Source: Pedobacter sp. MC2016-24 (GTDB lineage Bacteria > Bacteroidota > Bacteroidia > Sphingobacteriales > Sphingobacteriaceae). Taken from it: a stretch of 64,000 nt of DNA. Below the pieces are notes generated by a model. That model ran no database searches. It was not told where the DNA came from and saw only the letters and a program-made list of their open reading frames with translations. Location of the stretch: the NCBI RefSeq assembly GCF_015223055.1, contig NZ_JADFBX010000004.1:1-64000 (forward strand), written 5' to 3'. Below, in pieces: positions 44,938-62,190 of the stretch (within the stretch, counting starts at the first letter, position 1; each line of letters starts with the position of its first letter). Both the position numbers and the translations under genes were made by a program.

Positions 44938-45385
44938 GTAGCGTTAGTTCTTGGTCAGAAGATTTATGAATACCCCTGTTCTGTATTTTCCCTATAGCTA
45001 AATTTACAGAATGATTGCCCGTTGTTAGTGAATTTTCAGATAAAATACTGGTTGATTAGCATTTTATTAGCTTGAAATTATTCTAAGTATTAATTTAATT
45101 GGTGTGTTTTCTGCGCTAAACAACTAATAGGTTTATTTGGGTTAGACCGTTTACAACCTTTTTGAGGTTTGTAATTTGAAATGATTGTTCAATATGTGGA
45201 GTGCCTGAATTCTGAATGTGGTGATGTCTCATTAAATGTTGTGGCCTGTAAGTGGTTTGGTATGCAGGGAATAATGGATGAACTGAATTCGAAATATAAC
45301 AATACCGAAAATTTCTGAGATTAATATTTCTGTGAGGAATATTTTGGTTTTTTTTAAATGGAGATTTGAGTCAATCAATCATCCC
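44938..45385. repeat. Diverged repeat, copy 1: sigma-gene stub plus divergent promoter region
   Basis: This stretch is alignable along most of its length with 54202-54650. Shared blocks include TGGTCAGAAGATTTATGAAT, GCTAAATTTAC, TTAGTGAATTTTCAGATAAA (ATTAG/GTTAG variants), AATGCAGGGAATAA and GAGATTAATATTTC. On the minus strand, 44938-44985 still encodes I-H-K-S-S-D-Q-E-L, identical to the start of the sigma factor at 54238, but its ATG has become AGG and a stop follows. It is therefore the 5' stub of a lost sigma gene, with the promoter region that still serves the mauE-like gene at 45390. Confidence 0.7.
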
Positions 45386-45389
45386 AGAC

Positions 45390-45863
45390 ATGAAAACCAA
45401 AGGCCGACTTAATGAATTTATCACTTTTATCCCGGCGGTATTGCTGCTGATGTTATGGGGGTATGCTGCGGTTTCTAAAATTGCCGAATATAATAAGTTC
45501 GTTTTGCAAATGCAGCTTGCACCTGTTCCATTAATGAAGCTAGCAGGTCCTGTACTTGGATGGCTCGTTCCGGCGGTTGAGTTATTGCTTGTTTTGCTTT
45601 TATTGAAGGATAAGTTCAGAATCGTAGGACTTTGGTCTTCTTTCTTTTTGTTGCTCGTTTTTGAGATTTACATTACTGTGATGCTGTCATCTGGATTACA
45701 TTTACCATGCACATGCGGTGGGCTGATCTCGAAATTACAGTGGAAAGAGCATCTCATTTTCAATGCTATCTTCATGCTGGTCGCCTTATTTCCCATGGCT
45801 TACACTTGGATCAATCATAAATTTTTTTCATCTCGATATTCACCGCGGAGTATATATAAATAA
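45390..45863 (+). CDS. MauE/DoxX-like redox-associated membrane protein
   Basis: This 157-residue membrane protein has four predicted transmembrane helices (about 11-30, 55-72, 80-100, 120-140). It matches the MauE/DoxX superfamily: W-G-Y-A-A-V-S-K-I-A-E-Y-N-K-F near helix 1 and P-C-T-C-G-G-L-I-S-K-L-Q-W-K-E-H-L-I-F-N (C107, C109) before the last helix. MauE-type proteins are thought to pass electrons across the inner membrane to periplasmic thiol proteins such as TlpA relatives. The frame opens at a TTG (45366), but ATG 45390 is the better start. It is co-directional with the small exported protein at 45894 (30-base gap). Confidence 0.85.
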   Translation: MKTKGRLNEFITFIPAVLLLMLWGYAAVSKIAEYNKFVLQMQLAPVPLMKLAGPVLGWLVPAVELLLVLLLLKDKFRIVGLWSSFFLLLVFEIYITVMLSSGLHLPCTCGGLISKLQWKEHLIFNAIFMLVALFPMAYTWINHKFFSSRYSPRSIYK

Positions 45864-45893
45864 CCATTTTTTTAATCCTTAATCTTTAACAAC

Positions 45894-46181
45894 ATGAAAA
45901 CAAATTTTAAAACAGGAATTCTGGCATTAGCCTTAATGGCCAGTGTTACAGGAGTGTTTGCTTCTGATATTGCAAATGCATTTAGTGGCGGAAAATTTGC
46001 CGCTTACAACTGGCAAAGAGTAGATGAGACAACTCAACTACCTACAGGACCAATTGTACCAGGAGATGAGTCTAACCCTTTTCCTGAAGCTTGTAATGGC
46101 GATAAAGATCCAATCTGTGCCCAGGGTATACCTCAATCTAATCCAGGTGGAGGCCCAACCTTGTTTTATCACTACAATTAA
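45894..46181 (+). CDS. Small exported protein with a cysteine pair (DUF6520-like), module A
   Basis: This 95-residue protein has a clear signal peptide (about 1-23, ending V-F-A-S). The mature part is about 70 residues, Pro/Gly/Asn-rich, with two cysteines in E-A-C-N-G-D-K-D-P-I-C-A (C67, C75; spacing C-x7-C) and an aromatic end (L-F-Y-H-Y-N). It resembles the small DUF6520 proteins that occur beside MauE-type genes in Bacteroidota; this assignment is from memory of the pattern. The sequence does not show an enzyme. A likely disulfide and the neighbouring thiol-redox genes suggest an exported redox-matured peptide. It ends at a strong hairpin (46191-46221). Confidence 0.7.
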   Translation: MKTNFKTGILALALMASVTGVFASDIANAFSGGKFAAYNWQRVDETTQLPTGPIVPGDESNPFPEACNGDKDPICAQGIPQSNPGGGPTLFYHYN

Positions 46182-46190
46182 TTAAAAAAT

Positions 46191-46221
46191 AGCATCGGCG
46201 GGAAAATATCCCGCCGATGCT
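46191..46221. terminator. Strong bidirectional terminator
   Basis: AGCATCGGCGGGA (46191-46203) and its exact complement (46209-46221) flank a 5-base loop, with A-rich sequence before and T-rich sequence after. It serves both the small exported protein gene and the convergent TlpA-like gene that ends at 46221. Confidence 0.85.
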
Positions 46222-47585
46222 TATTGCTTATTTTTGAGGTCATAAAGGACCAATATTTGGTACGGCCTAATTAAATTGGTAAATTGGTAGCCATATTTGT
46301 TCAACTGACTATAAATTGCCTGAAGCGGTATTCCTTTTTCATAGTCTGCTTTAGAAAAGATAAGTGCCAGATCAAAGCGAACATCATCAGCCGGACTTAG
46401 CTCGATTACAAAAGGATCAGGCAAAGGTTTTGCGCCATAGACGCTGAAAATCCAATTGGTGACATCTTTAATTTTTGAATTCTGGATTTCAAGTTTGTTC
46501 CCTGGAGCCCACTTGATCGACGGGATTTCATTTGTCTCAACGCTTAATTTTAAAGGCGCACCAACAGTTTTAGTGACTACATTACAGGGTATGTTTCGGG
46601 ACTCGATCTTAGCAGAAACTCCAAAATAGCGCTCAAGGTCGCTGAACAGGTAAGATCTGAATACCGTATCAGCGACGCGATTTGGTAAAGTAAGCGCATA
46701 ACAAAAGGTGTTTTCCTGTTTCCAGGCATCGAGGTCTTGATATTTGGAGCCTTCTGGAAATTGTTTCAAATCTTGGCTGGGGTAGAAGAGCCTTAAAGAA
46801 TCTTTGGTATGTACCTCTATCAGATTTTTTCTCCAGACAAGGGATGGTGATTGGTTATACAGTGAGTAAGCTGCATGGAAGAGGCTGGTGATTGAGGCAT
46901 TCCACTGGAAAAAACGGTTGTAGGCTAATCCTTCTGCAGCGCCGCCAAGTACCCCACCGTTACCCACCGGGATGTGGGGGGTAATGATGGAACGATAAGA
47001 AAAGCTGGTGTCGGCAAGATGGAATTCCTTTGTGGCATCAAAGTTCAGGATTTCTTTCTTGACCTTAAATTTTGAAGTCAGTTCTGTATTGAAATTCAAG
47101 ATGTTTTGTGCTGTGATTTCATCACTGGAGGTAATTGCTTTGATGATCCCGTTTTTGTCGATCCATATGTTGTGAGGTATTGTGCGCTTGGGAAATAAGT
47201 TATTGAGCACTGTATCTGCCAAGACAATGCTGAGCTGACTGGTAAAACCCGAAGGATGTTTTCTGATGAATTTTTGAACAGTCTTTTCTGATTCCCTGGT
47301 CACTAGGAGTACTTCAAATTTATCGGGGTGTTTTTGTTTTAAGGAATCGAGCAAACGCATTTCTTTAATGCAGGGTGCACACCAGGTTGCCCAAAAGTTG
47401 ATGATCAGGAGGCGGTTTTTGGAGAGGTCCTTAAAGCTTACATCGGCGCGATTGAGCAGTCCTTTGATTTGCAGGTTGGGAATGGTATCGTTGATTTGGA
47501 GTGTTTTGGTTCCTTGCGCTTTCACAGTATGGGCGATTAGCAAAAAATATAAAGAGAATATCAGCTTAATTTTAATAGTCTTCAT
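46221..47585 (-). CDS. TlpA-like thioredoxin-fold exported protein, module A
   Basis: This 454-residue protein has a signal peptide (ending H-T-V-K-A-Q). A TlpA/redoxin domain follows (about 30-170) with the W-A-T-W-C-A-P-C motif (C69, C72) and a cis-Pro loop at R-T-I-P-H-N-I-W-I-D. The extra about 280-residue C-terminal domain has no recognised motif but shows two alpha/beta repeats near the end (D-D-V-R-F-D-L-A-L-I-F-S, then G-I-P-L-Q-A-I-Y-S-Q-L-N-K-Y-G-Y), as in DUF3738-type extensions. TlpA-like proteins reduce or isomerise disulfides in the periplasm. It is the last gene of the sigma-FecR-SusC-SusD-TlpA group; the SusD stop overlaps its start by 14 bases. Confidence 0.87.
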   Translation of the reverse strand: MKTIKIKLIFSLYFLLIAHTVKAQGTKTLQINDTIPNLQIKGLLNRADVSFKDLSKNRLLIINFWATWCAPCIKEMRLLDSLKQKHPDKFEVLLVTRESEKTVQKFIRKHPSGFTSQLSIVLADTVLNNLFPKRTIPHNIWIDKNGIIKAITSSDEITAQNILNFNTELTSKFKVKKEILNFDATKEFHLADTSFSYRSIITPHIPVGNGGVLGGAAEGLAYNRFFQWNASITSLFHAAYSLYNQSPSLVWRKNLIEVHTKDSLRLFYPSQDLKQFPEGSKYQDLDAWKQENTFCYALTLPNRVADTVFRSYLFSDLERYFGVSAKIESRNIPCNVVTKTVGAPLKLSVETNEIPSIKWAPGNKLEIQNSKIKDVTNWIFSVYGAKPLPDPFVIELSPADDVRFDLALIFSKADYEKGIPLQAIYSQLNKYGYQFTNLIRPYQILVLYDLKNKQ

Positions 47586-48942
47586 TTTGTTTCAAATTTG
47601 AATTGTAAGCGATTTCACTGTTTGGGATGGGTAAGACTTTTGCGCTTGTCTTCCAGGTGGTTTTAAGCGGTTCCATAACCGCATCCAATTGCCCGGTACG
47701 CTTGAGGTCGAAGAAACGGTGTCCCCATTCTCCAAAGAACTCAATGCGCCTTTCTTTGGTAATTGCATCCAGACATTCCTGTTCCGAAAGGGTATTACTC
47801 AGGGGAAGTAATCCTCCCCTCATCCGGATGATATTGAGGTCTGCTATTGCAGCTGGTACATCTTTCAGTTGTGCAAAAGCTTCAGCCCGGATCAGCAATT
47901 GCTCACTAAGTCTTAAGGCCATCACATATTCGGCTTTTGTGGTATTTGCTGTGCGGTTTTTGTATTTGGAAGGGTAACTATAAGGTGTGGTTATGCCGCC
48001 AACTGTTACGTTGTTGCTTGTAATCCATTTGGATTTCCTGCTATCCGTATTTTCAAATGATGCGGCAAGTGCAGTTGAAATGGTGTAGGTAGGCTGAACT
48101 GTTGCTGATACCGGGATGAATTGGGTGGCATCGCTTACAAATCCATTGACAGCCCAAAACTGTAAAATGGTTTCTTTGCTATTGGCTAGAAATACATCTT
48201 CAGGTTTTGGAAGGGGCGTGTACTGATTTGAATTGATTATTTCTGACGCTTTCGCAACAGCTTGCGTCCATTTGCGCTCAAATAGGAAAGCTCTGGCCAG
48301 TAAGGCATCAGCGGCTTGTTTGTTTGCGCGGACTTTCCCGGTACCAGCGTATTGATTTTTTAGAATTGCCGATGCATCCAGCAAATCCTTTTCAATCTGT
48401 TCATACACCTGGCTTTCAGGAACCTGTGCTGCTCTGGCATTGCCATTTACCTCGGTTGTCAAAATCAAGGGCACATGTTCATATAGGTTAACAAGATAAA
48501 AGTTTGCGTATGCCCTAAGGAATTTAGCCTCTGCAATCAACTTTTCCTTAACTGGGATTTTTACCCCTGTGGAATGTTCCAGTCCTTCCATCAGTGAGTT
48601 GCATTGATAAATTACCAAATATAACCCGTTCCATAAGCTGGAATTTGTACTGTTTCCGGAACCTAATTGGCTTTTGTTAAATTCAACAATAGGACCGGTT
48701 GAAGCTGTATAATTGTATTCATCTGCGTAAATGTTGAGGTTTTTATGAATCCCTCCGTATACGGTGGTACCCATGGTAAAATAGGCACCAAGTAGTGCAG
48801 AAGTGGCCAGTGTGCTGTCTCTAAATACATCAGTATTTTCGATTTGATTTTTGGACTGGGGAATTTCGACCAATTTGTTGCAGGACATCCATGCAAAACA
48901 GCAGCCAAAAAACACAATCAGTTTATTTGAATAGAATTTCAT
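47572..48942 (-). CDS. SusD/RagB-type surface lipoprotein, module A
   Basis: About 456 residues with lipobox F-A-W-M-S-C-N. The frame opens at 48981, inside the upstream SusC gene, but the Met at 48942 starts a normal lipoprotein signal (M-K-F-Y-S-N-K-L-I-V). SusD features are A-E-A-K-F-L-R-A-Y-A-N-F-Y-L-V, M-A-L-R-L-S-E-Q-L-L-I-R-A-E-A-F-A, K-E-R-R-I-E-F-F-G-E-W-G-H-R-F-F-D-L-K-R and L-P-I-P-N-S-E-I-A-Y-N-S-N-L-K-Q-N. It partners the SusC at 48953. As no glycan enzyme is near, the cargo may be a peptide or another molecule, as in RagAB. Confidence 0.92.
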   Translation of the reverse strand: MKFYSNKLIVFFGCCFAWMSCNKLVEIPQSKNQIENTDVFRDSTLATSALLGAYFTMGTTVYGGIHKNLNIYADEYNYTASTGPIVEFNKSQLGSGNSTNSSLWNGLYLVIYQCNSLMEGLEHSTGVKIPVKEKLIAEAKFLRAYANFYLVNLYEHVPLILTTEVNGNARAAQVPESQVYEQIEKDLLDASAILKNQYAGTGKVRANKQAADALLARAFLFERKWTQAVAKASEIINSNQYTPLPKPEDVFLANSKETILQFWAVNGFVSDATQFIPVSATVQPTYTISTALAASFENTDSRKSKWITSNNVTVGGITTPYSYPSKYKNRTANTTKAEYVMALRLSEQLLIRAEAFAQLKDVPAAIADLNIIRMRGGLLPLSNTLSEQECLDAITKERRIEFFGEWGHRFFDLKRTGQLDAVMEPLKTTWKTSAKVLPIPNSEIAYNSNLKQNEDY

Positions 48943-48952
48943 TTTTTGATAG

Positions 48953-51900
48953 TTATAAGGTGAATTGAAGGCCAAAAACAAATGTTTTTAACGGCGGGAA
49001 GTTTCTGGAAGAATTGGCAAAAAAGCCACCCGACTCCGGATCAAAAAGTGGGGTGTTCTTTTTCCATAGCGTATACAGATTTTGGCCCTGGGCATAGATC
49101 TTCAAGTGATCGAACTTTAGCTTTTTCAACAGCTTAGCATCAACAGCGTAGGTCAGTGATACATTTTTTAACCGGAGATAGGATGTGTTGAACAGGTTGA
49201 GGGAAGACTGCAGGTAATAGAAGTCGTAGCTTGTTGTAGCCTTAGGTATAGTGGATTGCGGGTTTTCGGCTGACCACCTGTTTTTAACCAGCTCAAAATT
49301 GTTTGCAGCAAATGCCCCTGGATTGTTGTTGATGGATCCGAAGCTCTGCTGTTTGACAAACTGGGCAAACACATTTAGTTCAAAGTTTTTAAAGTTAAAG
49401 GTGTTGTTGTACCCGCCATAACAATCCGGGCTAGTTTTTCCAAGTGTAAAATTGTAATAAGGTGTGGCAGAATAGGTACCGTTTTCACCGGCATATTGTG
49501 GCTTACCTGTATTTGGATCCATGCCGACAAAGCTGTATCCGGCAATCCGGCTAATATCATGACCCAGTTCATAGCTGGTTGCATAGCTTGAGTTTTCAAA
49601 GTTTTGAAAGGATTTTAGCGTGTTTTTAGGGATGGTCAAATTGAACATCGTAGACCAGCTGAATGCCTTTTGATCAATGATCCTTGCGTTGATGCTGAAT
49701 TCCCATCCTTTATTGATCAGTACAGCTGGCAGATTGGCCTGGTAGGAGGCAAAGCCAGTGATCTGAGGGATGCTGTATAAGACGAGTTGATCTTTACTCT
49801 GGTTGCGGTAATAATCAACCGAGATAGAAATTCTATCCTTTAAAAATCCAAGGTCCATAGCCAGATCCAGTTTGCGCGTGGTTTCCCAGTGGAAATCGGC
49901 ATTGCTGATCCGGTTTGGCCGGATGGTTACCATATCCTGGTAAATGTTGGTACCGGGACTGCTATAGGTGGAAAGGTACTGGTAGTCGCCAATCTGATCA
50001 TTTCCTGTGGTGCCATAGCTCGCCCGAAACTTTCCAAGATTAAGAAATGGGACTTTATCTTTTATAAATGAAAGGTTGCTAAATATCCAGGTGGCCCCAA
50101 TGGATCCAAAATTACCAAAACGGTTACCCGTGCCAAAGCGCGAAGATCCGTCTCTTCTGATGGTGGCATTGATGACATAGCTATCCTTCAGATTGTAGGT
50201 GATCCTGCCGAATACTGAAGCGTATTTGTATTCGGAAAAATTGCTGGTTCGGCTGTCTATGGTACCGGCAGAACTTAGATCTTCCATCACGTCTTCCAGT
50301 TTAAAATTACTGGCCTGGATGTATTTACTTTCAGCTTTTCGGTTTTGAAAAGTAGCCCCGGCAAGAAATGTGAGCGCGGAGTTTTTGAATTTCATGCTGT
50401 AATCCAATTGCGGTTCAATGAGGAATGAACGTGATCCATTGTCGCCAAACTGGGAATAGTTAACCGTGCCGGGAGTGAGTGAACTGGTAGGAAAAATGAG
50501 GGTTTGCTGATACCTGGTTTTGGTATATCCTGCATTTAATTTAATGTTGAGGCTGGAGACTAAATTGTAACCTACATTTAAATTGGTAATGAGATTATCA
50601 GTGCCGGTTTTACTTCTGGCATTTGCGTCTGCTACCGGATTTGCCCCCGAGTACCAATTTAACGATCCGTCTTCAAGATATAAGGGGTAGTTGGGTGCAA
50701 AACCGAAGCTGCCCAGGCTTTTGAACAAGTTGGAGAGGTCATTGTTGGCCTGTGTGAGCTGGCTGATCAGGGAAATGTTTAGTTTGTTGTTCTCGGAATG
50801 GTGCTGTAGGTGGGAAGTTAGTCCACCACGCTGAAAGTCATTTTGGCCGGGAAGCACGGTAGTTTCCTGACGATAATTCCCGCTTATGGAGAAGGTAGTG
50901 TTTGCCTGTCCTCCTGATAGTTTAACCTGTGCATCTGTTGAATGCGCTGTACCACCGAATAAATAATCTACCCAGTCGGTACTTTGGCTTTGGTTCCAAA
51001 CGGTGAGATCCGGCGCGTAATTTGCGGAACTGGGGTTCGCAGAAGGTGTTTTTCCATCATTGCTAAATGCCTCTTTTCTTAAGGAAAGGTAATCGTCCAA
51101 ATTTAAAAGCTGCGGCCTTTGTACCAGCGTACTGAAACCCTGTTGAATATTTGCATCCAATTTTGTAGCCCCTGTTTTAGAACGCTTTGTGGTGATGAGT
51201 ACTACACCATTTGTGCCCCGGCTGCCATAAATTGAGGTGGCATCTGCGTCTTTAAGCACGGTTATACTTTCGATATCGGCGGGGTTAATGTTGTTTAGCG
51301 GGCTAATTGAACCTGCTATGTTATTTACAGCCAATGATCCTTTTGCAGGAGCACTTCCGTCGTATGGCATTCCGTCTATGATGTACAAGGGATCTGTACC
51401 GGCTAAGATTGAACCTTTTCCCCTGATTTGGACGCTGATGTTTCCGCCAGGCAAACCGTTAGTGGTTTGTACGAATACGCCAGGCATCCTGCCGGACAAT
51501 GCGGATAGTACATTTGTTATTGGTTGCTGTTCGATTTGTTTAGCCGAAATCGATGACATACTTCCAGTATTCAGCTTTCGGGTAGTTTGTCCGTAACCGA
51601 TAATTTGAATTTCATCCAATTTACCATCATTAATTTTTAAAGTTAATGTACCTAAGTTGGCTTTAGCATCAATTTCCCTGGTTTGGTAGCCGATATAGCT
51701 GATCATTAAAACAGCTTGCTCATCCACATTTTGCAAATAAAATGCTCCCTCATCATTTGTTTTTATTGATCTTGATGATCCTTTGATCATCACGGTTGCT
51801 CCAGTCAATGGATTCCCCTTTTCATCAACGATTTGACCTTTGATATCAATAACTTGAAATCGGGCTGCTAAATTTTCAAAGAAAGACTTTTCTTTTTCCT

Positions 51901-52243
51901 TGATTACAACGGTTTTGTTAGATATGGTGTAGGTTAACGGTTGTTCTTTAAATATCAAAGTCAATGCATCAGAAAGTTCAATTTGGTTAACCTCAATACT
52001 TACTGGCCGGGATTGTTTAAGGAGCTCGCCGGTAATGATGAAATTATAGCCGCTTTGCTTCCTGATTTCTTTTAAAACGGAGTTTAACGGCTCTTTTTTC
52101 TGGGACAATGAGATTTTCTGGGCAAAGCCCGAGGCACTCACCTGCATGATTGTGGCTATTAAAATGACGATGACTAAGCGCATAATGAACAATATTTTTT
52201 GGTATAGCCCAGCAGGTATACCGTCTTTGTTGGTATAAATCAT
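48953..52243 (-). CDS. SusC-type TonB-linked importer with STN signalling domain, module A
   Basis: This 1096-residue protein has a signal peptide (about 14-42, ending S-G-F-A-Q-K), then an STN domain (about 45-115: E-P-L-N-S-V-L-K-E-I-R-K-Q-S-G-Y-N-F-I). A carboxypeptidase-regulatory-like domain follows (about 133-215), then a plug with I-I-G-Y-G-Q-T, S-G-R-M-P-G-V-F-V and I-E-S-I-T-V-L-K-D-A-D-A-T-S-I-Y-G-S-R-G-T-N-G, and a barrel ending V-F-G-L-Q-F-T-L. The STN domain contacts FecR (52432) to signal ligand binding to the ECF sigma factor (53663). This makes an induction loop on its own cargo. Confidence 0.93.
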   Translation of the reverse strand: MIYTNKDGIPAGLYQKILFIMRLVIVILIATIMQVSASGFAQKISLSQKKEPLNSVLKEIRKQSGYNFIITGELLKQSRPVSIEVNQIELSDALTLIFKEQPLTYTISNKTVVIKEKEKSFFENLAARFQVIDIKGQIVDEKGNPLTGATVMIKGSSRSIKTNDEGAFYLQNVDEQAVLMISYIGYQTREIDAKANLGTLTLKINDGKLDEIQIIGYGQTTRKLNTGSMSSISAKQIEQQPITNVLSALSGRMPGVFVQTTNGLPGGNISVQIRGKGSILAGTDPLYIIDGMPYDGSAPAKGSLAVNNIAGSISPLNNINPADIESITVLKDADATSIYGSRGTNGVVLITTKRSKTGATKLDANIQQGFSTLVQRPQLLNLDDYLSLRKEAFSNDGKTPSANPSSANYAPDLTVWNQSQSTDWVDYLFGGTAHSTDAQVKLSGGQANTTFSISGNYRQETTVLPGQNDFQRGGLTSHLQHHSENNKLNISLISQLTQANNDLSNLFKSLGSFGFAPNYPLYLEDGSLNWYSGANPVADANARSKTGTDNLITNLNVGYNLVSSLNIKLNAGYTKTRYQQTLIFPTSSLTPGTVNYSQFGDNGSRSFLIEPQLDYSMKFKNSALTFLAGATFQNRKAESKYIQASNFKLEDVMEDLSSAGTIDSRTSNFSEYKYASVFGRITYNLKDSYVINATIRRDGSSRFGTGNRFGNFGSIGATWIFSNLSFIKDKVPFLNLGKFRASYGTTGNDQIGDYQYLSTYSSPGTNIYQDMVTIRPNRISNADFHWETTRKLDLAMDLGFLKDRISISVDYYRNQSKDQLVLYSIPQITGFASYQANLPAVLINKGWEFSINARIIDQKAFSWSTMFNLTIPKNTLKSFQNFENSSYATSYELGHDISRIAGYSFVGMDPNTGKPQYAGENGTYSATPYYNFTLGKTSPDCYGGYNNTFNFKNFELNVFAQFVKQQSFGSINNNPGAFAANNFELVKNRWSAENPQSTIPKATTSYDFYYLQSSLNLFNTSYLRLKNVSLTYAVDAKLLKKLKFDHLKIYAQGQNLYTLWKKNTPLFDPESGGFFANSSRNFPPLKTFVFGLQFTL

Positions 52244-52431: not shown

Positions 52432-53541
52432 TTATTTAAGCACTGTAATCCTCCTTCCTTCAATTTTAAAATGAACACTGCCGGTTGATTCCAGAACGTT
52501 AAGCACTTTCGATACCTGGTCAAACCTTGATACACTTCCTATAAAGGTGTTATTAGGGATTCCATTGGTATACACGATTTCAACGTTATACCAGCGCGCT
52601 ACTTTTCGTAATACGCTTTCCAATGGCTCGTTATCGAAAATAAAGAGACCGTTTTTCCATGCAATTGCTTCTTCTGTATCAACATCCCGAATACTGATGC
52701 CTTTGGCTGTTGCGATGGATTGCTGGTTTGGTTTTAATAATTGTGTTTTACCATTTGAGGTTACTTTTACTGATCCTTCAACAAGGGTGGTCTTTATATG
52801 GGTTTCATCCGCATAACTGCTCACATTAAAATGAGTACCAAGCACCTCTATCTGCTGATCTGCACTCTTTACAATAAATGGATGTTGCTTATCTTTTGCA
52901 ACCTGGAAGTACCCTTCGCCGGTAAGCTCAACTGTTCTTGTCACTAATCCTGAAAATGTGGATGGAAATTTAAGGGTGCTGGCGGCGTTTAGCGCTACGG
53001 TTGTGCCATCTGGCAATTCCACATTATACTGTCCTCCCCGGGGGGTGGTTATGGTAGAGATTGGATTTGCTTTGATGTTCAGGTTTTGAATTGCGGTACC
53101 ATCATCATAGGTCAATTGAGACCCCTTGATTACAATGCCGGATTTGGTGTCATTTAAGTTGATCGTTTTGCCGTTTGCTAGAGTTAGGACAGCTTTATTG
53201 CTGCCGGGGGCAACATCGTTGGCGTAGGTTGGGGTATTGGTATTCACCGGCTTTACTGTATCGTTGTTTTTAAAGAAGTAAAGACCAAGTATAATTAATG
53301 CTATTGCAGCGGCTATTGAACTGGCCCATTTAAATGCAATTGTTTTTGTACTTGTTGGTTTTGGAAGCCTATTGTAGATCTTTGTTTGCTGTTCGATAAA
53401 ATCAACAGTTCCTGGTTTATCTTCCCTGTTCTTTACTTCATTGTTGTACCAGCTTTCAAAAATTATTTTTTCTTGATGGCTGCAGGTTCCATTAAGATAT
53501 TTTTCCAGCAGCTGCTTTGCTCTTTGTGATTCCATATTCAA
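52432..53541 (-). CDS. FecR-type anti-sigma regulator
   Basis: This 369-residue protein has an N-terminal cytoplasmic part with L-L-E-K-Y-L-N-G-T-C and F-E-S-W-Y, one transmembrane helix (about 72-90, A-S-S-I-A-A-A-I-A-L-I-I-L-G), the FecR domain (I-T-T-P-R-G-G-Q-Y-N-V-E-L-P-D-G-T, then L-N-A-A-S-T-L-K-F-P) and a C-terminal DUF4974 domain (A-R-W-Y-N-V-E-I-V-Y). It holds the sigma factor at 53663 inactive until the SusC STN domain signals across the periplasm. An ATG two codons in (53535) is also possible. It lies 121 bases after the sigma gene. Confidence 0.92.
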   Translation of the reverse strand: MNMESQRAKQLLEKYLNGTCSHQEKIIFESWYNNEVKNREDKPGTVDFIEQQTKIYNRLPKPTSTKTIAFKWASSIAAAIALIILGLYFFKNNDTVKPVNTNTPTYANDVAPGSNKAVLTLANGKTINLNDTKSGIVIKGSQLTYDDGTAIQNLNIKANPISTITTPRGGQYNVELPDGTTVALNAASTLKFPSTFSGLVTRTVELTGEGYFQVAKDKQHPFIVKSADQQIEVLGTHFNVSSYADETHIKTTLVEGSVKVTSNGKTQLLKPNQQSIATAKGISIRDVDTEEAIAWKNGLFIFDNEPLESVLRKVARWYNVEIVYTNGIPNNTFIGSVSRFDQVSKVLNVLESTGSVHFKIEGRRITVLK

Positions 53542-54925: not shown

Positions 54926-55192
54926 ATGATGAAAACGTTGGATACAGTAAAGATAATGGACATTCCATGGACTTTAATTCCTTTGTCAATGCTTGCTGCG
55001 ATAGCGATACTGAACATTGGTTTTATTAGGAGTTACATGGATGTAGAGGTAGATTGTATTACCATATATGTACTTCCATTTTTTATGTCCGCTTACGCCC
55101 GTAAGAGAGTCTTTAATAGGGTTATTCATAATCGCAAAGATGCTACATTCCCGATCAACCCGGATAGTAAGGAATCGCTATCCGGGAAATGA
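54926..55192 (+). CDS. Possible small membrane protein, doubtful
   Basis: An 88-codon frame has two hydrophobic runs (I-P-L-S-M-L-A-A-I-A-I-L-N-I-G-F-I and I-T-I-Y-V-L-P-F-F-M) and a basic tail. It occupies the place where module A has its MauE-like gene but shows no similarity to it, and lacks the cysteine pair. Another frame from 54907 is also open for about 40 codons. It may be real, a relic or chance. A 9-bp inverted repeat (CCCGGATAG, 55159-55167 with 55178-55186) lies over its end. Confidence 0.25.
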   Translation: MMKTLDTVKIMDIPWTLIPLSMLAAIAILNIGFIRSYMDVEVDCITIYVLPFFMSAYARKRVFNRVIHNRKDATFPINPDSKESLSGK

Positions 55193-55277: not shown

Positions 55278-55304
55278 CTTTCTTTTTGCTATTATAAAAG
55301 AAAG
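55278..55304 (+). promoter_or_regulatory. Hairpin directly before the start of the small exported protein
   Basis: CTTTCTTTT (55278-55286) and AAAAGAAAG (55296-55304) are exact complements around a 9-base loop. The right arm is the purine-rich stretch just upstream of ATG 55312, where a ribosome would bind. It could limit translation or shield the mRNA end; this is inference. Confidence 0.35.
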
Positions 55305-55311
55305 TAAGATC

Positions 55312-55689
55312 ATGGCAATAAGCATGGTTAAAAATTATAAAGCATGGCTGGGAGCCTTAGCCTTATTTCTAATGGTTGGTATAGCAACCATTACTTTTGG
55401 TTTTAAAAGTGATGTTAAAGCTAACAAGGATGCTGCTGTTTCAAAAAGAACTGTGGAATGGTATTCTATAACCCAAATTGTTGCAGGTCCAAATTGGTCG
55501 GCAAGCAATCTTAAAATAAGTACAGGGGTAACCGGGGAGCCTACTGGTGATGAATGTAATATAGACAATGAAGGGAATCCATGTTCCGCCAGGTTTAATA
55601 ACACAAGTGGAAGTACTTTGCCCTTAAATACGCCACTTAGTTCATTACCTCCGGGCGTAAGTTTCCAGATTTATGCTAATCAACCCTAG
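55312..55689 (+). CDS. Small exported protein with a cysteine pair (DUF6520-like), module B
   Basis: This 125-residue protein has an N-terminal hydrophobic segment (about 12-30, W-L-G-A-L-A-L-F-L-M-V-G-I-A). The mature part has V-E-W-Y-S-I-T-Q-I-V-A-G and one cysteine pair in D-E-C-N-I-D-N-E-G-N-P-C-S (C82, C91; spacing C-x8-C). Compared with the module A protein it keeps an upstream Trp, the Gly-Pro-rich spacer and the C-N-x-D...P-x-C pattern, but little else. ATG 55324 is an alternative start. It ends at a hairpin (55705-55741) and faces the SusD gene of module B. Function unknown; probably an exported disulfide-bonded peptide. Confidence 0.65.
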   Translation: MAISMVKNYKAWLGALALFLMVGIATITFGFKSDVKANKDAAVSKRTVEWYSITQIVAGPNWSASNLKISTGVTGEPTGDECNIDNEGNPCSARFNNTSGSTLPLNTPLSSLPPGVSFQIYANQP

Positions 55690-55704
55690 TTAAATCATAA
55701 CATG

Positions 55705-55741
55705 AAAATAGCGGGTATCTGATAAGGGTGCCCGCTATTTT
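55705..55741. terminator. Bidirectional hairpin terminator, module B
   Basis: AAAATAGCGGG (55705-55715) and its exact complement (55731-55741) form an 11-bp stem. It lies between the small exported protein gene and the convergent SusD gene, the same arrangement as the terminator at 46191-46221 but with unrelated sequence. Confidence 0.8.
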
Positions 55742-55743
55742 AT

Positions 55744-57120
55744 TTATCGGGGGTTTTGTAAATAACCTCCAAGGTCAATTGATTTATCAGGAATAGGCCA
55801 GACATATCGGATGTCATTAGGTGGCAATGTAAAAATCTCACCATTTAAATTCCTGGTCAGGGTCTTAGCTGAATGAGCATCCTTGTTCAGCCTTCTTAAA
55901 TCCTCCCAGCGAGTCCCCCTTAACAGCAGCTCTCTTCGTCTTTCCAATAAGATGATATCAACAAGCACCTCAGCTGATACCTGCTGCAAACTGGAGAAAC
56001 TGTTACTGTCATATCTGGTTACCAGCAATTGATTGAGTCTTTCCAAAGCTACTGATATGTCTCCCAATCGCGCGTTACATTCGGCACTGATCAACAACAT
56101 TTCATCCACGGCCAATCCGGTAAATAAAGTTGCTGCTCCTGTATAGGACCCTTTAAAAAGTGTTCTTCCATTTGTTCCTGGCCTGAAATAGGCCTTTGAC
56201 CGAAGGTCATTTCTTTGATACAAGTTCAATACCTCCTCTGCTATATTAATTCTGGTTGTCGTAACCATAGAGATATTCGCCATATATGAGAGAAAAATGA
56301 CTTCAGGATTGTTGGTGCCTAGCGTGGGAAAAGTATAAGAAGCATTCAGGTTTAGACCATTCAGGTCATTAAGTTCATTTCTGATTTTCAGGCATTTTTC
56401 TGCATTTATTCTGGCATTTTTATAATCCCTCATCAAAAGATATATCCTTGCTAGTAGCGCAAAAGCTGCGGGTTTGGTGGGACGGTAAACGTTTATGCCT
56501 TTTTCTGGAAGGAGATCTGCAGCGAGATTAAGGTCACTAATGATTTGAGCGTACACCTTTTCATTTGTCCCCCGCGAAATCTTTAGGGTTACGTCCGGCT
56601 CCAGTCTCAATGGTATTCCCAAATCAGTTGCAGCGCTTGACTGTTCAAATGGCGCACTGAAAAGTTGTGCCAGTTGATAAAAATTATAGGCTCTGAAAAA
56701 ATGAGCCCCTCCCTTAACATTATTCCAATCCAACTGATTGGAAGGTTTCGGCTGTATCTTTTCTATTCCAGCACAGGCTGTATTGGCAAATAGAATACGT
56801 CTGTAGGCCTTATTCCAATCGTTCACATCTATGCCTTCATATACATTTTTTGCCCAGATATAGCCATTCTTTTCAAATGGTCTGTTAGGAATATCACGCC
56901 AGGATTCATAAGAAAGGCCGATCTCGTCTCCACCAATCACACCCAATTCATGGCCCGAACTTGTGTTCATGGTTACGGTTGCATCATCCAGTAATGCCTG
57001 CAAATCGGCTATACTAGTCGGCACGACCAATGCTTTGTCGCGCTTTTCCTCCAGAAACTCTTTTCCACATCCTGTAAACAGCACAGAAAGGATCATTAAT
57101 ATTTTTATATAATTTTTCAT
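55744..57120 (-). CDS. SusD/RagB-type surface lipoprotein, module B
   Basis: This 458-residue lipoprotein has lipobox V-L-F-T-G-C-G (Cys about 18). Typical segments are F-L-E-E-K-R-D-K-A-L, H-F-F-R-A-Y-N-F-Y-Q-L-A-Q-L-F, A-V-D-E-M-L-L-I-S-A-E-C-N-A-R and R-R-E-L-L-L-R-G-T-R-W-E-D-L-R-R-L-N-K with V-W-P-I-P at the end. It starts 9 bases after the SusC stop (57130). It belongs to the branch of SusD that accompanies TlpA-like genes and is only distantly related to the PUL SusD proteins here. Confidence 0.9.
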   Translation of the reverse strand: MKNYIKILMILSVLFTGCGKEFLEEKRDKALVVPTSIADLQALLDDATVTMNTSSGHELGVIGGDEIGLSYESWRDIPNRPFEKNGYIWAKNVYEGIDVNDWNKAYRRILFANTACAGIEKIQPKPSNQLDWNNVKGGAHFFRAYNFYQLAQLFSAPFEQSSAATDLGIPLRLEPDVTLKISRGTNEKVYAQIISDLNLAADLLPEKGINVYRPTKPAAFALLARIYLLMRDYKNARINAEKCLKIRNELNDLNGLNLNASYTFPTLGTNNPEVIFLSYMANISMVTTTRINIAEEVLNLYQRNDLRSKAYFRPGTNGRTLFKGSYTGAATLFTGLAVDEMLLISAECNARLGDISVALERLNQLLVTRYDSNSFSSLQQVSAEVLVDIILLERRRELLLRGTRWEDLRRLNKDAHSAKTLTRNLNGEIFTLPPNDIRYVWPIPDKSIDLGGYLQNPR

Positions 57121-57129
57121 TTTCTTGAT

Positions 57130-60100
57130 TTAAAATTCAGCATTCAGTCCGATTGAAAAAGATTTGGGATTAGGATAAGAAGAGTTTATATAATCTGGAT
57201 CAATTCCTTGTTTATTAGCACGCCATAAAATTCCCGGATTCTGTAGATACATATACAACCGCAGGCTGGTCAATCCTGTGCCTCGGATTGCCTGTCCATT
57301 AATCCTGTAACTTAGGTTGACATCCTGAATCCTAATGTAGTCGCCCTTTGTAATCAGAGCTGTAGAGGAATTGTATATCTGTGCCTGATAAGAATCAAAA
57401 GTATCAGATCTAGCGGGCACATTTGTCTTCAATTCGTCTCCTGGTTGTGTCCATCGCTGGAAATAATCTACATGATATCCTGATGGCCCGACGTATTCTG
57501 CTCCTGGCACCATTGAACTTCTCCTGAAAGTGTAACCAGCCTTCCATATCAGGTTGGCACTCAACTGAAAATTCTTATAACTGAATGTGTTCCTCAATGA
57601 ACCGAAGTACGGTGGAATGGTTACTCCAGCATCGATCAAATCTCCAAATGATCTACTCAAATAATAGCTTTCGTATTCCCTTCCGAGGTTATTTTCATAA
57701 TTTACCCTTACCTGCCCTGTGCTGGGATCAAGCCCATTCCAGGGTAGGGCATAGATCACATCCAGAGATTTGCCGACCATGACTGGTGGGATATCCAGGT
57801 ATGGAGTAATGGAAGAAGGAATGGCAGTACTGAAATGGGTTACTTCGTTTTTATTATAACTAAACAAAAAGGTTGTTTCCCACTTCAATGCATTGTTAAG
57901 GTTATAACTGGTTAATGCCAAATCGAAACCCTTAGTTTTAAGATTTGCATAGTTGATTTTATTTTCCAGTGTAGGAAGGGCTGCATCAAAAATCCCGGTT
58001 GTAGGATCCATGAAATCAATCCCTATCAGGTCGCTCGCATTTTTGATGTAATATTCCATGCTCCCTTTGAGCCTTTGGTTCAATAACGCGAAATCCATTC
58101 CCAGATTTGTTGTCTTTACTGTTTCCCATCTCAAGTTAGGATTACCAGCACCGATCAGAGAAGCAGCAGGTAAACCTGTTCGTAAATCGGGGATATAAGA
58201 CGCCACCGGAAAGGCACTTACATTTGGATTGACATTACCACTGCTACCATAAGTCGCACGCAGTCTTAAATAAGGTATTGCAGATAAGCTATAAAATTTT
58301 TCTTTACTCAATTCCCAGCTCACGCCTGCTGACCATAGTGGTACACCTTTCTGGTTTGAATTTACGCCAAACAGATTTGAGCCGTCCCAACGGATGCTTC
58401 CTGATAAAATGTACCGATCCATGAATATATCGGATGCATTTACAAAATAGGATAGATATCTATCTGTTGTCAATCTGTGAGATGCAGGAGGTGCCGGAAT
58501 CTGGAGTGCTCCTTCGGGCCTGGCCGGATAATATTTACTATAGTCCAGCATATTATTAGCGGTCAATACATCACTGTTATAGTCATAAAGACGGAATCCA
58601 GGCAGTGATTCTGCAACTAGTTGCCTGACTTCTGCGCCTGCTAGTGCAGTAAGGGAATGACTGGATCTGATCCGTGTCGTATAGTTCAGTTGTACCCTGC
58701 CTGAATGGCTATCGGTCACTTGCTGGTTGCCTTCTAAAATTCCACCAGTAGGGATAACTCGCGTACCATCTGACTGGGTAAATCTATTAACCAGGTTTCT
58801 TACATAATAGCTATCTGGGTTATAATAGTTTCTACCCTTATTGCTATCACCTGTATATTGATAGGTAGCGTTAATATTGAACTCATTAAGAATATTATAT
58901 TTCAAACCACCAATCAACCGGATCTGGGAGCTCAACCGGGTGTTGTCTGCTAGGTTAACTTCGTCAAGAGGTTTGAATGTCCAGTCCAGCAACTCTCTGG
59001 TTGGGGTAGCCTGCTGATAGCTGAAGCGGTATTCCTTTGGGATAGCTAGTGCATTTCCCTGTTCATCTGCCAGTTGCAAGTAAGGTGAAACACTGAGCGT
59101 TCCTGCCGAAAGGTTATTAAAAGAAAGGCCATTGTTTTTTATTTTTTGCATGGTATACCAGATGCCTGCTGTAATTTCCAATTGTTCAATGGGTTTGAAG
59201 GTGTTTTGAAGGTTTAGGTTCAGTCTGCTGCCTGTATTTCCAATGACATCAGATCGGTTTTGGTCATAGTCACTTGAAAAATAATACCGGTGTACATTTC
59301 CACCTCCGCTTATATTTATTGCGTATTGCTGGTTCAAGCTACGCTGATACAGGGATTTTAAGGCCTCAGCTCGGGTATCGGTTGTTTCCATTATGGCTTG
59401 CTGTCTGTTAAATTCTTCTGCAGAAATTGTCTCTTGTTTCTTGCTAATCAGGAGTTCGACATATGGAGGAATCAGAATGGCTGGATTTTCCGAGTAAGTA
59501 CCACCCCTGTTATACAATTCCTTTTCTATTTCCATTACAGCACTGGAGGGCAGGTATTTTCTATCATAAAACAAGTCTGGTTTATTACCTATATTCAAAC
59601 TGGTATTGAAAGATATTCGTGTCTTTTGATTATAACGCCCGGTTTTGGTGGTAATCACGATCACCCCGTTTCCAGCCCTGGCACCCCAGATGGATGCAGC
59701 AGCTGCATCTTTCAATATGGTGATACTTTCCACATCGTTAGGGTTAATGGTCGTAATGTCATTCTCATACGGAAAATTGTCTACTACAATCAGGGGTGAT
59801 TTATTGGATTCAATAGTCGAAAGCCCACGTATCTCGATCTTTGGCCTGGTATTAGGTGAATTGGCCGACAAGTGTCTCCTGTCAAAATTAAGACCTCCGG
59901 CTACTCCTTCGAGCCTGTCCAGAATATTTGTGCTTACATTTCTATTGATTTGGTTATTGTCTAGGTGTGTGAAAGAACCGGTGGCTCGTTCTGGTGAAAC
60001 CTTATAATATCCTGTATTTATTTCTACGGCTTTCAGGTTTAATTCATTGCTTTCAAGAACTACGGTTAACGTTTTTTTTATCTCCTTGTTTACAGCAATC

Positions 60101-60342
60101 ATTTTTGGAAGGTAACCTGTAAAACTCACAAGCAAGGTGTCTGTTACCGAAGTAAGGAAAATGCTAAAATTGCCATGACTATCGGTTGTGGTTTTCGTAC
60201 TACTTCTTTTTAAGGTTACATTTGCTCCGGCAAGGACTTTTCCCTGTACATGGTCATATACTTTTCCTTGTATATAAACCTGTCCTTTTAGCGCGAAAAT
60301 TTGCATGACCATAAAAAAAGTCAGTATATATATATTCCTCAT
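57130..60342 (-). CDS. SusC-type TonB-linked importer, module B
   Basis: This 1070-residue protein has a signal peptide (ending I-F-A-L-K-G-Q), a carboxypeptidase-regulatory-like domain (I-Q-G-K-V-Y-D-H, L-L-V-S-F-T-G-Y) and no STN domain. The plug has a variant opening (V-E-I-N-T-G-Y-Y-K-V-S-P-E-R-A-T-G-S-F) and L-D-R-L-E-G-V-A-G-G-L-N-F. It carries the SusC signature V-E-S-I-T-I-L-K-D-A-A-A-A-S-I-W-G-A-R-A-G-N-G. The barrel ends F-S-I-G-L-N-A-E-F. The E-R-A-T-G-S-F/S-I-W-G-A-R type usually occurs with TlpA partners, as here. Lack of STN fits the lack of FecR in this module. Confidence 0.92.
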   Translation of the reverse strand: MRNIYILTFFMVMQIFALKGQVYIQGKVYDHVQGKVLAGANVTLKRSSTKTTTDSHGNFSIFLTSVTDTLLVSFTGYLPKMIAVNKEIKKTLTVVLESNELNLKAVEINTGYYKVSPERATGSFTHLDNNQINRNVSTNILDRLEGVAGGLNFDRRHLSANSPNTRPKIEIRGLSTIESNKSPLIVVDNFPYENDITTINPNDVESITILKDAAAASIWGARAGNGVIVITTKTGRYNQKTRISFNTSLNIGNKPDLFYDRKYLPSSAVMEIEKELYNRGGTYSENPAILIPPYVELLISKKQETISAEEFNRQQAIMETTDTRAEALKSLYQRSLNQQYAINISGGGNVHRYYFSSDYDQNRSDVIGNTGSRLNLNLQNTFKPIEQLEITAGIWYTMQKIKNNGLSFNNLSAGTLSVSPYLQLADEQGNALAIPKEYRFSYQQATPTRELLDWTFKPLDEVNLADNTRLSSQIRLIGGLKYNILNEFNINATYQYTGDSNKGRNYYNPDSYYVRNLVNRFTQSDGTRVIPTGGILEGNQQVTDSHSGRVQLNYTTRIRSSHSLTALAGAEVRQLVAESLPGFRLYDYNSDVLTANNMLDYSKYYPARPEGALQIPAPPASHRLTTDRYLSYFVNASDIFMDRYILSGSIRWDGSNLFGVNSNQKGVPLWSAGVSWELSKEKFYSLSAIPYLRLRATYGSSGNVNPNVSAFPVASYIPDLRTGLPAASLIGAGNPNLRWETVKTTNLGMDFALLNQRLKGSMEYYIKNASDLIGIDFMDPTTGIFDAALPTLENKINYANLKTKGFDLALTSYNLNNALKWETTFLFSYNKNEVTHFSTAIPSSITPYLDIPPVMVGKSLDVIYALPWNGLDPSTGQVRVNYENNLGREYESYYLSRSFGDLIDAGVTIPPYFGSLRNTFSYKNFQLSANLIWKAGYTFRRSSMVPGAEYVGPSGYHVDYFQRWTQPGDELKTNVPARSDTFDSYQAQIYNSSTALITKGDYIRIQDVNLSYRINGQAIRGTGLTSLRLYMYLQNPGILWRANKQGIDPDYINSSYPNPKSFSIGLNAEF

Positions 60343-60377
60343 AGTTTTAGTTTAATTGATTGATTTTTAGCGTTGTC

Positions 60378-61772
60378 TTAGTTCCAGGTAATTCCTGAGG
60401 GTATTTCTAAGCCTGGTTTTTTCACGATGAGTACAGGAACTTTCCTCTGTTCAATTTTTAATGCTAAGCCATATTTAGAACATTCTCTAGCTGCAATATC
60501 AGAGTGTTCGTCTATGTTTGTGGGTAAATCAAATTGTATTAAGAAATCTTCATCTATGCCAGTACTGTTCAAGATGATTGCGTCTGGATTTGCCTGCTGT
60601 AGGACCCCCAAAATTGAACGAAATCCAACTTTTCTCATTCGGTATTGTTTTTCATTTTTTTCTGCAAGCCATTTTTTACTCTTATTCTTGAGCAGTGATT
60701 TAGTTTTCTGGATAGAGTTACTCACTGACAGGATAACGAATGTTCGGTTTTTCATTCCGATTTTAGATTCCAGATTAAATTTTCTTTCGAAAAAGCCGCT
60801 AATGTCATGTTGCATAATGTTCTGTCCTTCTTTTTCACTGACGCCTGTTGTGGTGAATAGTTGATAGGAGTATAAATTTTGTTCTCTCCATTTTAATAGC
60901 TTAGCATCCAATTTTAGATTTCCTGTCATGTTCACCTTAGGTGTTTTGAGTGCGGTCTTTAGGGAGTCATCAATAAACCAAAATACTCCTGAACCTTCGT
61001 TGTTCTCTAACTCTGCGTAGATTTTGTTCTTATAAGCTTCGTATAATAAGCTCAATGCCGGAAGGTTGACGATGGATAATGATAATGTATCTCCGTTGAT
61101 TTTAGATGTTAACTTAGACTTACGGGCTCCTTGAATTTGTTTGGTGATTGTTGATTGAAATAGGATATCATCCTTTGGTAAGCTCGTGCCGATTGGTTGT
61201 TCACTATCCACGACCCTATCCTGTAGATTCATAACCATTGCAGGATGCTTGTCTTGCAAAATAAGGTTTATGTTTTCTGCTGTGGCGTAAGTCCATTGTG
61301 GAATCGCGATTATTTTTCCATCTTTTATCCAGACCTGATGGGGTATTCCACTGTGTGGAAATATTTGTGAGAGCTGGGTATCAGCCACTATTGAAGTCAT
61401 ATTCCATTTGTACTTATTAAAAGCAGGTTTTGCTTCTATAGCTGATTGATAGGTTACAGGCAAAACAATTACCTGATTTTGATTTTGCATAGTTTGTATA
61501 ACATTATCCAGCTTGTTTAGTGATTTGATGCAGGGACCGCACCACGTTGCCCAGAAGTCAAGTATAATCAGTTTGTTTCTGTAGTTCTTCAGTTGAATAT
61601 TTGTAAGTGTACCTGTTTTAACATTTACGGCCTGATGGGGCGTTTGGTAAAAAGATTCAGGTAGGTTTTCACCCATTCTAATGGTCTTATTAGAAGGTTT
61701 ATAAAACTGTGCCTCCGTCTTAAAAAAAAGGCAAAGCGTGGCCAGGACTATAGTTAGTATAGTTTTTTTCAT
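60378..61772 (-). CDS. TlpA-like thioredoxin-fold exported protein, module B
   Basis: This 464-residue protein has a signal peptide (ending F-K-T-E-A-Q). A TlpA/redoxin domain follows (about 45-180) with W-A-T-W-C-G-P-C (C78, C81) and a cis-Pro loop at S-G-I-P-H-Q-V-W-I. As in module A, a C-terminal domain of about 280 residues follows, and the end again has K-Y-G-L-A-L-K-I-E-Q-R-K-V-P-V-L-I-V, matching the module A end K-Y-G-Y-Q-F...I-L-V-L in form. It is upstream of SusC here, whereas in module A it is last, so gene order has been shuffled. Confidence 0.87.
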   Translation of the reverse strand: MKKTILTIVLATLCLFFKTEAQFYKPSNKTIRMGENLPESFYQTPHQAVNVKTGTLTNIQLKNYRNKLIILDFWATWCGPCIKSLNKLDNVIQTMQNQNQVIVLPVTYQSAIEAKPAFNKYKWNMTSIVADTQLSQIFPHSGIPHQVWIKDGKIIAIPQWTYATAENINLILQDKHPAMVMNLQDRVVDSEQPIGTSLPKDDILFQSTITKQIQGARKSKLTSKINGDTLSLSIVNLPALSLLYEAYKNKIYAELENNEGSGVFWFIDDSLKTALKTPKVNMTGNLKLDAKLLKWREQNLYSYQLFTTTGVSEKEGQNIMQHDISGFFERKFNLESKIGMKNRTFVILSVSNSIQKTKSLLKNKSKKWLAEKNEKQYRMRKVGFRSILGVLQQANPDAIILNSTGIDEDFLIQFDLPTNIDEHSDIAARECSKYGLALKIEQRKVPVLIVKKPGLEIPSGITWN

Positions 61773-61839
61773 ATATAAATCGATTTAGTTAATTAGCAGG
61801 AATTAGGAAAGGTTCCTTATTGAGCTGTTGGTTATGATA

Positions 61840-62190
61840 TTAATTCTTTTTTTCTTCTTTAGCTTTCAACTCCCTGTAAGCATGGTAAACTCTTTTTTGC
61901 ATTTCTAATAGTGGAACTTCCATATGCTCGGCCATAACTTTCATAGAAATTCTAAGTAACCAGATAAAAACACTGGTCTGAGATGATTCGTAATTTTCAA
62001 CCTCATGCCACGCCTTAATGAAAGTCCAATCCAATATTCTATTTCTAGTTTCCTCATCAGTTACTACCAAAGCAACGACACCAGACATGCTATAGACATA
62101 GTTGTCATGAAGCTTTTTTAAACTAGATAGCTCCCTGTTTTTTAGACCATGAATAGTATCATCATTTGAGCGGGAAATCTGTCCTTTCAT
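61840..62190 (-). CDS. Shortened ECF-sigma-like protein, module B
   Basis: This 116-residue protein resembles ECF region 2 (L-K-K-L-H-D-N-Y-V-Y-S-M, D-E-E-T-R-N-R-I-L-D-W-T-F-I-K-A-W, F-I-W-L-L-R-I-S-M-K-V-M). It then ends soon after P-L-L-E-M-Q-K-R-V-Y-H-A-Y-R-E-L-K-A-K, which recalls only the last helix of region 4. Typical ECF factors are 160-190 residues, and the -35-reading helix-turn-helix seems mostly lost. The frame is intact, so it may be a degenerate regulator or an anti-sigma-like decoy. It lies 67 bases upstream of the TlpA gene and could be the first gene of that operon. Confidence 0.6.
   Translation of the reverse strand: MKGQISRSNDDTIHGLKNRELSSLKKLHDNYVYSMSGVVALVVTDEETRNRILDWTFIKAWHEVENYESSQTSVFIWLLRISMKVMAEHMEVPLLEMQKRVYHAYRELKAKEEKKN

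Follow-up and report, generated by a model that had tools for sequence, protein, structure and literature searches.

Two neighbouring gene modules of Pedobacter sp. MC2016-24 (GCF_015223055.1) each encode a small Sec-exported protein with a cysteine pair, positioned tail to tail with an operon for SusC, SusD and a TlpA-type thioredoxin-like protein. They lie in a window of 64,000 nucleotides (positions 1 to 64,000 of contig NZ_JADFBX010000004.1), module A at 45390-54238 and module B at 54926-62190. The layout recurs in Bacteroidota: the membrane protein MauE, a small Sec-exported Cys-pair protein and a tail-to-tail SusC/SusD operon, to which a TlpA-type gene usually belongs. We give an even chance to the reading that this is a self-made disulfide-peptide system, in which a dedicated peptide is matured through MauE and has its own SusC/SusD transporter (SusCD) as partner, and in which TlpA or a peptidase acts on the incoming material. 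Environmental Bacteroidota possess many SusC/SusD pairs without a known substrate, and a module that encodes a likely protein partner beside the transporter would offer a direct way to assign one. The module also connects transport across the outer membrane with the thiol chemistry of MauE and TlpA in the periplasm, and it suggests functions that could be tested for DUF6520 and for those MauE proteins of Bacteroidota that consist of a single domain. It is apparently undescribed. Literature searches for MauE with SusC, or for MauE/DoxX with SusD in Bacteroidetes, found nothing pertinent; those for SusCD with thioredoxin, TlpA or peptide uptake, or as a pheromone or bacteriocin receptor, gave nothing pertinent among the top-ranked matches; and neither a mention of DUF6520 nor a paper on NVEALA peptides, considered as relatives of the small proteins, was found in the literature searched.

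The original prediction, made from the letters of the window, described two modules in which a small Cys-pair protein faces SusC, SusD and a TlpA-like protein, and Pfam searches and open reading frames (ORFs) confirmed these genes. In module A, the genes for MauE and the small protein on the forward strand are followed by convergent genes for TlpA, SusD, SusC, FecR and a sigma factor on the reverse strand. In module B, an ORF with a single transmembrane (TM) segment and the small-protein gene are followed by convergent SusD, SusC, TlpA and a truncated sigma-like ORF. As predicted, both pairs meet tail to tail, and MauE is present in module A and missing from module B. Strong hairpins separate the facing genes.

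To define how far the layout extends, three samples of loci were read with profiles built from loci of the host genome. The first (D1) derived from MauE matches across 61 genomes of the family. Its source list held 69 MauE places outside the host genome, in frames of <345 aa; reading covered 56, which make up 52 loci, and the other 13 were mostly the weakest. The total of 52 retains one locus at a contig end (L136) and one with a DoxX-type protein (L230). The second (D2) derived from DUF6520 matches across 296 genomes of the phylum (with matches in 18), 20 of the 21 foreign loci being read, and its loci carry a DUF6520 match by construction. The third (D3) comprised 16 loci found by scanning named genomes for the MauE motif (Pedobacter, Chitinophaga filiformis, Lacibacter luteus, Allomuricauda zhangzhouensis and metagenome-assembled genomes). 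Convergent SusC/SusD genes were found in 46/52, 18/20 and 14/16 loci, respectively. An automatic rule, permitting a Cys-Cys distance of 2-14 residues, detected the small protein in 42/52 loci of D1, in 15 of the 18 D2 loci with MauE and in 16/16 of D3. Hand inspection of D1 raised its count to 49/52 by adding two fusions (L139 and L141), L148, L150, L225, L226, L227 and L235 and removing the spurious L156. The small protein and convergent SusC/SusD occurred together in 38 D1 loci by the automatic rule and in 46 after hand inspection (L235 with one Cys).

By its own terms, the original prediction would be refuted by small proteins that occur apart from SusCD/TlpA across genomes, and this check did not refute it. 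In the DUF6520-seeded sample, 18/20 loci have MauE and convergent SusC/SusD; L173 and L181 lack both MauE and Sus genes and look like false DUF6520 matches. A small protein without SusCD was seen in two C. filiformis loci and in L154, six-Cys small proteins with SusC on the same strand in L151 and L158, and neither small protein nor SusCD in L156. One genome of 5.1 Mb, G311 (family genus g155), has 18 MauE matches.

The host genome contains 136 SusD genes in 6.79 Mb, so numerous that an adjacent small gene might be meaningless; if they were placed uniformly, ~6% of random sites would by arithmetic have a convergent SusD no more than 6 kb away. Two kinds of control speak against chance neighbours. 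DoxX-type MauE loci of the same family had convergent Sus genes in 0/19 and a small-protein rule match in 1/19 (a twentieth was without an anchor); one of them, L216, has SusC on the same strand. For ordinary SusD loci we took 20 from the host genome (every third rank of the SusD list) and 7 other loci of that genome, dropped 7 SusD with a cut 3' side and kept 23, which showed MauE in 0/23 and a rule match, spurious-looking, in 1/23. Considering also that the layout recurs in three samples across the phylum, we regard coincidence as hardly credible.

In the host genome, MauE matches comprised six strong sites (E <1e-25, one being a tandem pair), one 388-aa DoxX-type protein and three weak matches (30, 25 and 23 bits). 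At 6/6 strong sites, MauE is followed by a small exported Cys-pair protein and convergent SusC/SusD; the DoxX-type protein and the three weak matches lie outside any such module. One site (C4:402k) has two small genes in tandem. A thioredoxin-like protein is encoded in the facing operon at 5/6 strong sites, with its domain N-terminal (~450 aa) or C-terminal (~500 aa), and alignment showed P-C-x-C-G-G to be invariant in the seven aligned MauE proteins of this genome. With a MauE-less module resembling B at C1:195k (L045), there are at least eight modules, A and B included, counted from the minority of the 136 SusD loci that was read.

We compiled a set of 82 small proteins, leaving out L151 and L158 (six Cys) and L068, L069 and L235 (one Cys); L150, L225-L227, L166, L175 and L176, missed by the automatic rule, are also outside the set. 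Beyond the signal, the first cysteine lies 4-9 residues from the second (6 or 7 in 63/82). The mature part has two cysteines in 64 proteins, four in 17 and three in one, and an aromatic motif (YNW, WY etc.) precedes the cysteines in 68/82. The median gap from MauE to the small gene is 84 nt, and that from the small-protein stop to the convergent stop is 57 nt (67 loci). In two genomes of one genus (L139, L141), MauE and the small protein form one in-frame polypeptide. The fusion, together with adjacency in nearly all loci, makes the small protein the likely target of MauE, in agreement with the original prediction.

Employing 59 modules (42 after dereplication; window modules A and B are outside the set), we compared the covariation of the small protein with its neighbours. 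In the 42 modules, the mature part tracked SusD given MauE (0.227, reached by 0/400 permutations) and did not track MauE given SusD (0.00, 187/400). The signal peptide behaved the other way round: 0.304 with MauE given SusD (0/400), and 0.062 with SusD given MauE (64/400). MauE against SusD gave 0.094 (43/400). The link between mature part and SusD persisted when genus, length and composition were entered as covariates and under within-genus shuffles (0/400). In both the 59 and the 42 modules, mature-part distances also tracked SusC distances, and signal-peptide distances tracked those of MauE. Within SusC, the mature part tracked the barrel given the plug and N-terminal domain (0.149, 1/500), and the reverse did not hold; plug and N-terminal domain score below every length-matched chunk of SusD and may align less well. 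The covariation with SusD suggests recognition at the surface face, and it supports the earlier proposal that the small protein is a partner of SusCD.

A different partnership is conceivable: the small protein could be a non-transported, periplasmic component of SusC/SusD, acting as its subunit, gate or chaperone, its disulfide being maintained by MauE and TlpA. The Sec signal and the lack of a recognised outer-membrane exporter in the module agree with this, covariation of the mature part with SusCD would be expected equally, and convergent genes sharing a terminator would fit parts of one complex. However, it is SusD, the lid at the cell surface, and the barrel with which the mature part covaries; for the periplasmic N-terminal domain and the plug, no covariation is left when the barrel is accounted for. 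The ordinary SusD loci used as controls in this genome also manage without a small protein. We consider a periplasmic subunit unlikely. The small protein might instead be a redox shuttle from MauE to the TlpA-type protein, with SusCD carrying an unrelated thiol substrate. The MauE-small protein fusion, the TlpA-type protein in the facing operon of 46/52 D1 loci and the speculation, in an excerpt of PMC7794033, that MauE forms disulfides are all in line with a shuttle. Yet the small proteins are highly divergent outside the cysteines, the dereplicated mature part tracks SusD and not MauE, and loci without TlpA have a peptidase instead or nothing; a shuttle is quite improbable in our estimate.

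A tree of 131 SusDs (FastTree, midpoint root) required 9 changes between module and non-module labels, versus at least 29 in 200 shuffles. Module SusDs are clustered in three or more clades, the largest of which has a support of 47 and includes 10 non-module SusDs, and modules A and B belong to different clades. Since module SusDs fall in three or more clades, the pairing of module with SusD was apparently made or kept more than once.

The third gene of the facing operon varies. By Pfam, it encodes a Met-zincin in L072 and L165 and an S9 peptidase in L167; the remaining proteins of the 858-902 aa group are assigned to S9 from length and place. Neither TlpA nor a peptidase was seen in eight Pedobacter loci (L059-L065, L074). 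FecR, searched with our own profile, occurs in 10/78 modules, and FecR signalling was rejected as the module core for this reason. FecR and TlpA are not core genes of the module, and MauE is not universal, being missing from B-like modules. Thiols or peptides are the substrates of TlpA, S9 and Met-zincin proteins, and, taken with the fusion and the covariation, this favours a self-made peptide recognised by its own SusCD and supports the earlier view of a peptide or thiol system, not a glycan locus.

The self-made peptide system may operate in three steps. The small protein would be exported via Sec, and MauE at the inner membrane would close its Cys pair or hold a set redox state. The mature mini-protein would then be the cognate ligand or cargo of the facing SusC/SusD, meeting SusD and the barrel at the surface, a step to which the covariation speaks in part. 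Finally, in the periplasm, the TlpA-type protein would reduce the incoming material, or an S9 or Met-zincin peptidase would cut it in other lineages. That the peptide is a carrier or a signal, released and then recaptured, is our guess. The broadest form of the proposal is phylum-wide self-peptide transport, a categorically new one, in which a cell's own one-disulfide mini-protein is oxidised by MauE, released and recognised by a co-evolving SusC/SusD, several lock-and-key pairs per genome serving as carriers of scarce nutrients or as private peptide signals; we put this forward tentatively and with clearly less than even confidence.

An antagonistic role, with a bacteriocin-like peptide whose uptake target or self-protection is SusCD, would suit a divergent mature part adjoining its likely cognate receptor and several distinct modules per genome. 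No immunity gene or exporter was recognised, however, and most of the small proteins are acidic (net charge <0 in 84% of 82, median -4), unlike many bacteriocin-like peptides. We consider this role very unlikely.

Several observations weigh against a self-made peptide matured by MauE and recognised by SusCD. The correlations are weak (~0.2), and alignment of the mature sequences is difficult. With the whole small protein in a MAFFT alignment, MauE (0.194) and SusD (0.188) scored about equally. When near-duplicates were kept, the mature part gave 0.07-0.085 with MauE (24/400; 13/400 in a second analysis) and the signal peptide 0.17 with SusD (3/400), and with within-genus shuffles of the dereplicated set the link between signal peptide and MauE was weaker (16/400). 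The AlphaFold model of small protein A has a mean predicted local distance difference test score (pLDDT) of 66. Individual loci depart from the scheme: the small protein of L235 has lost one Cys, the TlpA motif of L166 reads CSAS instead of CxxC, and in the fusion locus L141 the facing SusD is split in two ORFs and the TlpA ORF has only 183 aa, so that this locus may be decaying or misassembled. No outer-membrane or surface exporter was recognised in the module. Lastly, module B and its relatives L045 and L217-L220 are without MauE.

In the MauE-less modules, a single-TM ORF of 78-98 aa occupies the place of MauE; the one in module B had no match in Pfam or NCBIfam. Located immediately before the small gene, these ORFs have a KRV...H-x-R/H-K-like motif in common. 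Small protein B has a paralog in L045 (29% identity, E 3e-5) and relatives in further genomes. The features of both window modules are listed in the following table.

Table. Features of modules A and B in the window, with related ORF sites elsewhere.
Feature	Position	Strand	Details
MauE-type membrane protein, module A	45390..45863	+	PF07291 94.7 bits (cut-off 27); PCTCGG motif
Small Sec-exported protein, module A	45894..46181	+	95 aa; C-x7-C; YNW motif; from ORF and sequence; in the set of 82
Terminator-like bidirectional hairpin, module A, between small-protein and TlpA genes	46179..46232	both	-26.6 / -27.8 kcal/mol, z -6.4 / -7.5
TlpA-type protein, module A	46221..47585	-	454 aa; AhpC-TSA 45.6 bits; WCAPC
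SusD, module A	47572..48981	-	PF14322, PF07980
SusC with N-terminal STN domain, module A	48953..52243	-	PF07660, PF13715, PF07715, PF00593
FecR anti-sigma factor, module A	52432..53541	-	PF04773, PF16344
Extracytoplasmic function (ECF) sigma factor, module A	53663..54238	-	PF04542, PF08281
Putative single-TM ORF in the place of MauE, module B	54926..55192	+	88 aa; similar ORF in same place in L045, L217, L218, L219, L220 (by eye)
Small Sec-exported protein, module B	55312..55689	+	125 aa; C-x8-C; from ORF
Hairpin, module B, between small-protein and SusD genes	55687..55750	both	z -5.5 / -3.7
SusD, module B	55744..57120	-	PF14322, PF07980
SusC, module B	57130..60342	-	PF13715, PF07715; SusC/RagA chains in PDB; no STN match
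TlpA-type protein, module B	60378..61772	-	464 aa; PF00578, PF08534; WCGPC
Truncated sigma-like ORF, module B	61840..62190	-	116 aa; weak NCBIfam sigma matches only
Single-TM ORFs, MauE-less modules	window 54926-55192; L045:14064-14360; L218:9278-9514; L219:4666-4902; L220:9634-9870; L217 within 9533-10069		

A sigma-like gene had been predicted over each module. This proved right for module A, with its ECF sigma factor, and doubtful for module B, where the best NCBIfam sigma match (E 2.1e-5) is far under the cut-off and no Pfam match was found at E<=1, so that the ORF is at most a putative truncated sigma region 2. The gene list given for module A had overlooked FecR. MauE of module A passes the PF07291 membership cut-off, and a PDB sequence search with it gave no match at E<=1. 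The TlpA-type protein of module A has an N-terminal ResA/TlpA thioredoxin domain and a C-terminal part without a family match; in its predicted model (pLDDT 86), residues ~21-172 matched ResA-type chains in a structure search (Z up to 16), and the matches in whole-model fold searches were filled by the thioredoxin domain. Three further operons encode the same TlpA family. L044 (host genome, C4:560000-578000) and L047 have SusC-SusD-TlpA operons without a small protein, the former also with a putative Zn-metalloprotease (814 aa, by eye), and L046 (host genome, C4:150000-168000) has a sigma-FecR-SusC-SusD-TlpA operon followed by a lantibiotic-dehydratase-like gene (1021 aa, by eye). A literature search on a lanthipeptide link of L046 returned nothing pertinent.

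Glycan enzymes had been predicted to be missing near the modules, and this held for the scanned proteins: the closest one that Pfam detected, over modules and flanking genes, was an alginate lyase (30331-31578) of another SusD cluster, ~14 kb away from MauE, in a scan of 10 proteins, and none was found among the 5 proteins beyond 62 kb. No structured RNA or tRNA scored over threshold within 40-64 kb. A Mutator-family transposase (42807-44042) separates module A from a TonB receptor/DUF4374 pair, and module B is flanked by a helix-turn-helix (HTH) gene (62641-62883) and a nucleotidyltransferase-HEPN protein (62903-63781). Ten genes upstream of MauE were scanned, giving four AraC-type HTH proteins, four Crp/cNMP-type proteins below cut-off, one rhomboid and one without a match. 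In D2, 14/18 MauE proteins continue into a ~350-aa domain without a family match (e.g. L167, L175, L176). Some modules have a free ~340-aa membrane-anchored protein, likewise without a family match, which in L043 comes after the small gene. The fused domain and the free protein share 26% identity (E 7e-22). The free protein is by eye a putative beta-propeller, and a PDB sequence search with it gave no match at E<=1.

Among known systems, MauE and MauD mature the small subunit of methylamine dehydrogenase, whose disulfides MauE is speculated to form (excerpt of PMC7794033). The modules resemble the Mau system in combining MauE with a thioredoxin-like partner and a small exported cysteine protein, and some also in the propeller-like ~340-aa protein, which has its counterpart fused to MauE in D2. 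They differ in that the small protein usually has two Cys and is paired with SusCD; of the light and heavy chains of methylamine dehydrogenase, PF02975 reached at best 14.6 bits (cut-off 25) in the host genome and PF06433 had no match at E<=1. In candidate families of ribosomally synthesised and post-translationally modified peptides (RiPPs) from Streptomyces, found with decRiPPter, MauE, and once also MauD, stands beside a Cys-rich precursor as a proposed modifier (same excerpt of PMC7794033). Those precursors have at least 8 cysteines (PMC7794033, as excerpted), whereas the small proteins of the modules, found in Bacteroidota, carry a Sec signal, usually have two Cys and face a SusC/SusD operon. 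If the modules were judged as RiPP loci, MauE and TlpA would be the sole candidates for a precursor-modifying enzyme. Some module small proteins belong to DUF6520 (PF20130, cut-off 25.4 bits), such as that at C1:1182769 of the host genome (31.8 bits) and that of L128 (29.6 bits), whereas small proteins A (13.2 bits) and B (12.1 bits) of the window fall below the cut-off. The TlpA-type proteins agree with TlpA/ResA oxidoreductases in the CxxC motif, in AhpC-TSA and Redoxin matches over the cut-off and, for A, in fold.

The modules share the SusC/SusD architecture with RagAB; RagA is among the PDB matches of both SusC proteins and RagB among those of SusD B. By sequence, however, other chains are closer (8aa4 for SusC A, 8ypu/8ypt for SusC B), and we know of no dedicated peptide gene for RagAB. 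Polysaccharide utilisation loci likewise have a SusC/SusD pair, and Pfam scans found no glycan-active enzymes within the modules. In methanobactin-like loops, a self-made peptide ligand is paired with a cognate TonB transporter. The modules use SusC/SusD instead of a lone receptor, and no such peptide-modifying enzymes were seen in them; what they have in common is the working principle that one locus encodes both a peptide and the outer-membrane importer for it. Lacking the mau chains looked for and the glycan enzymes of polysaccharide loci, the module would appear to work most like a self-made ligand loop.

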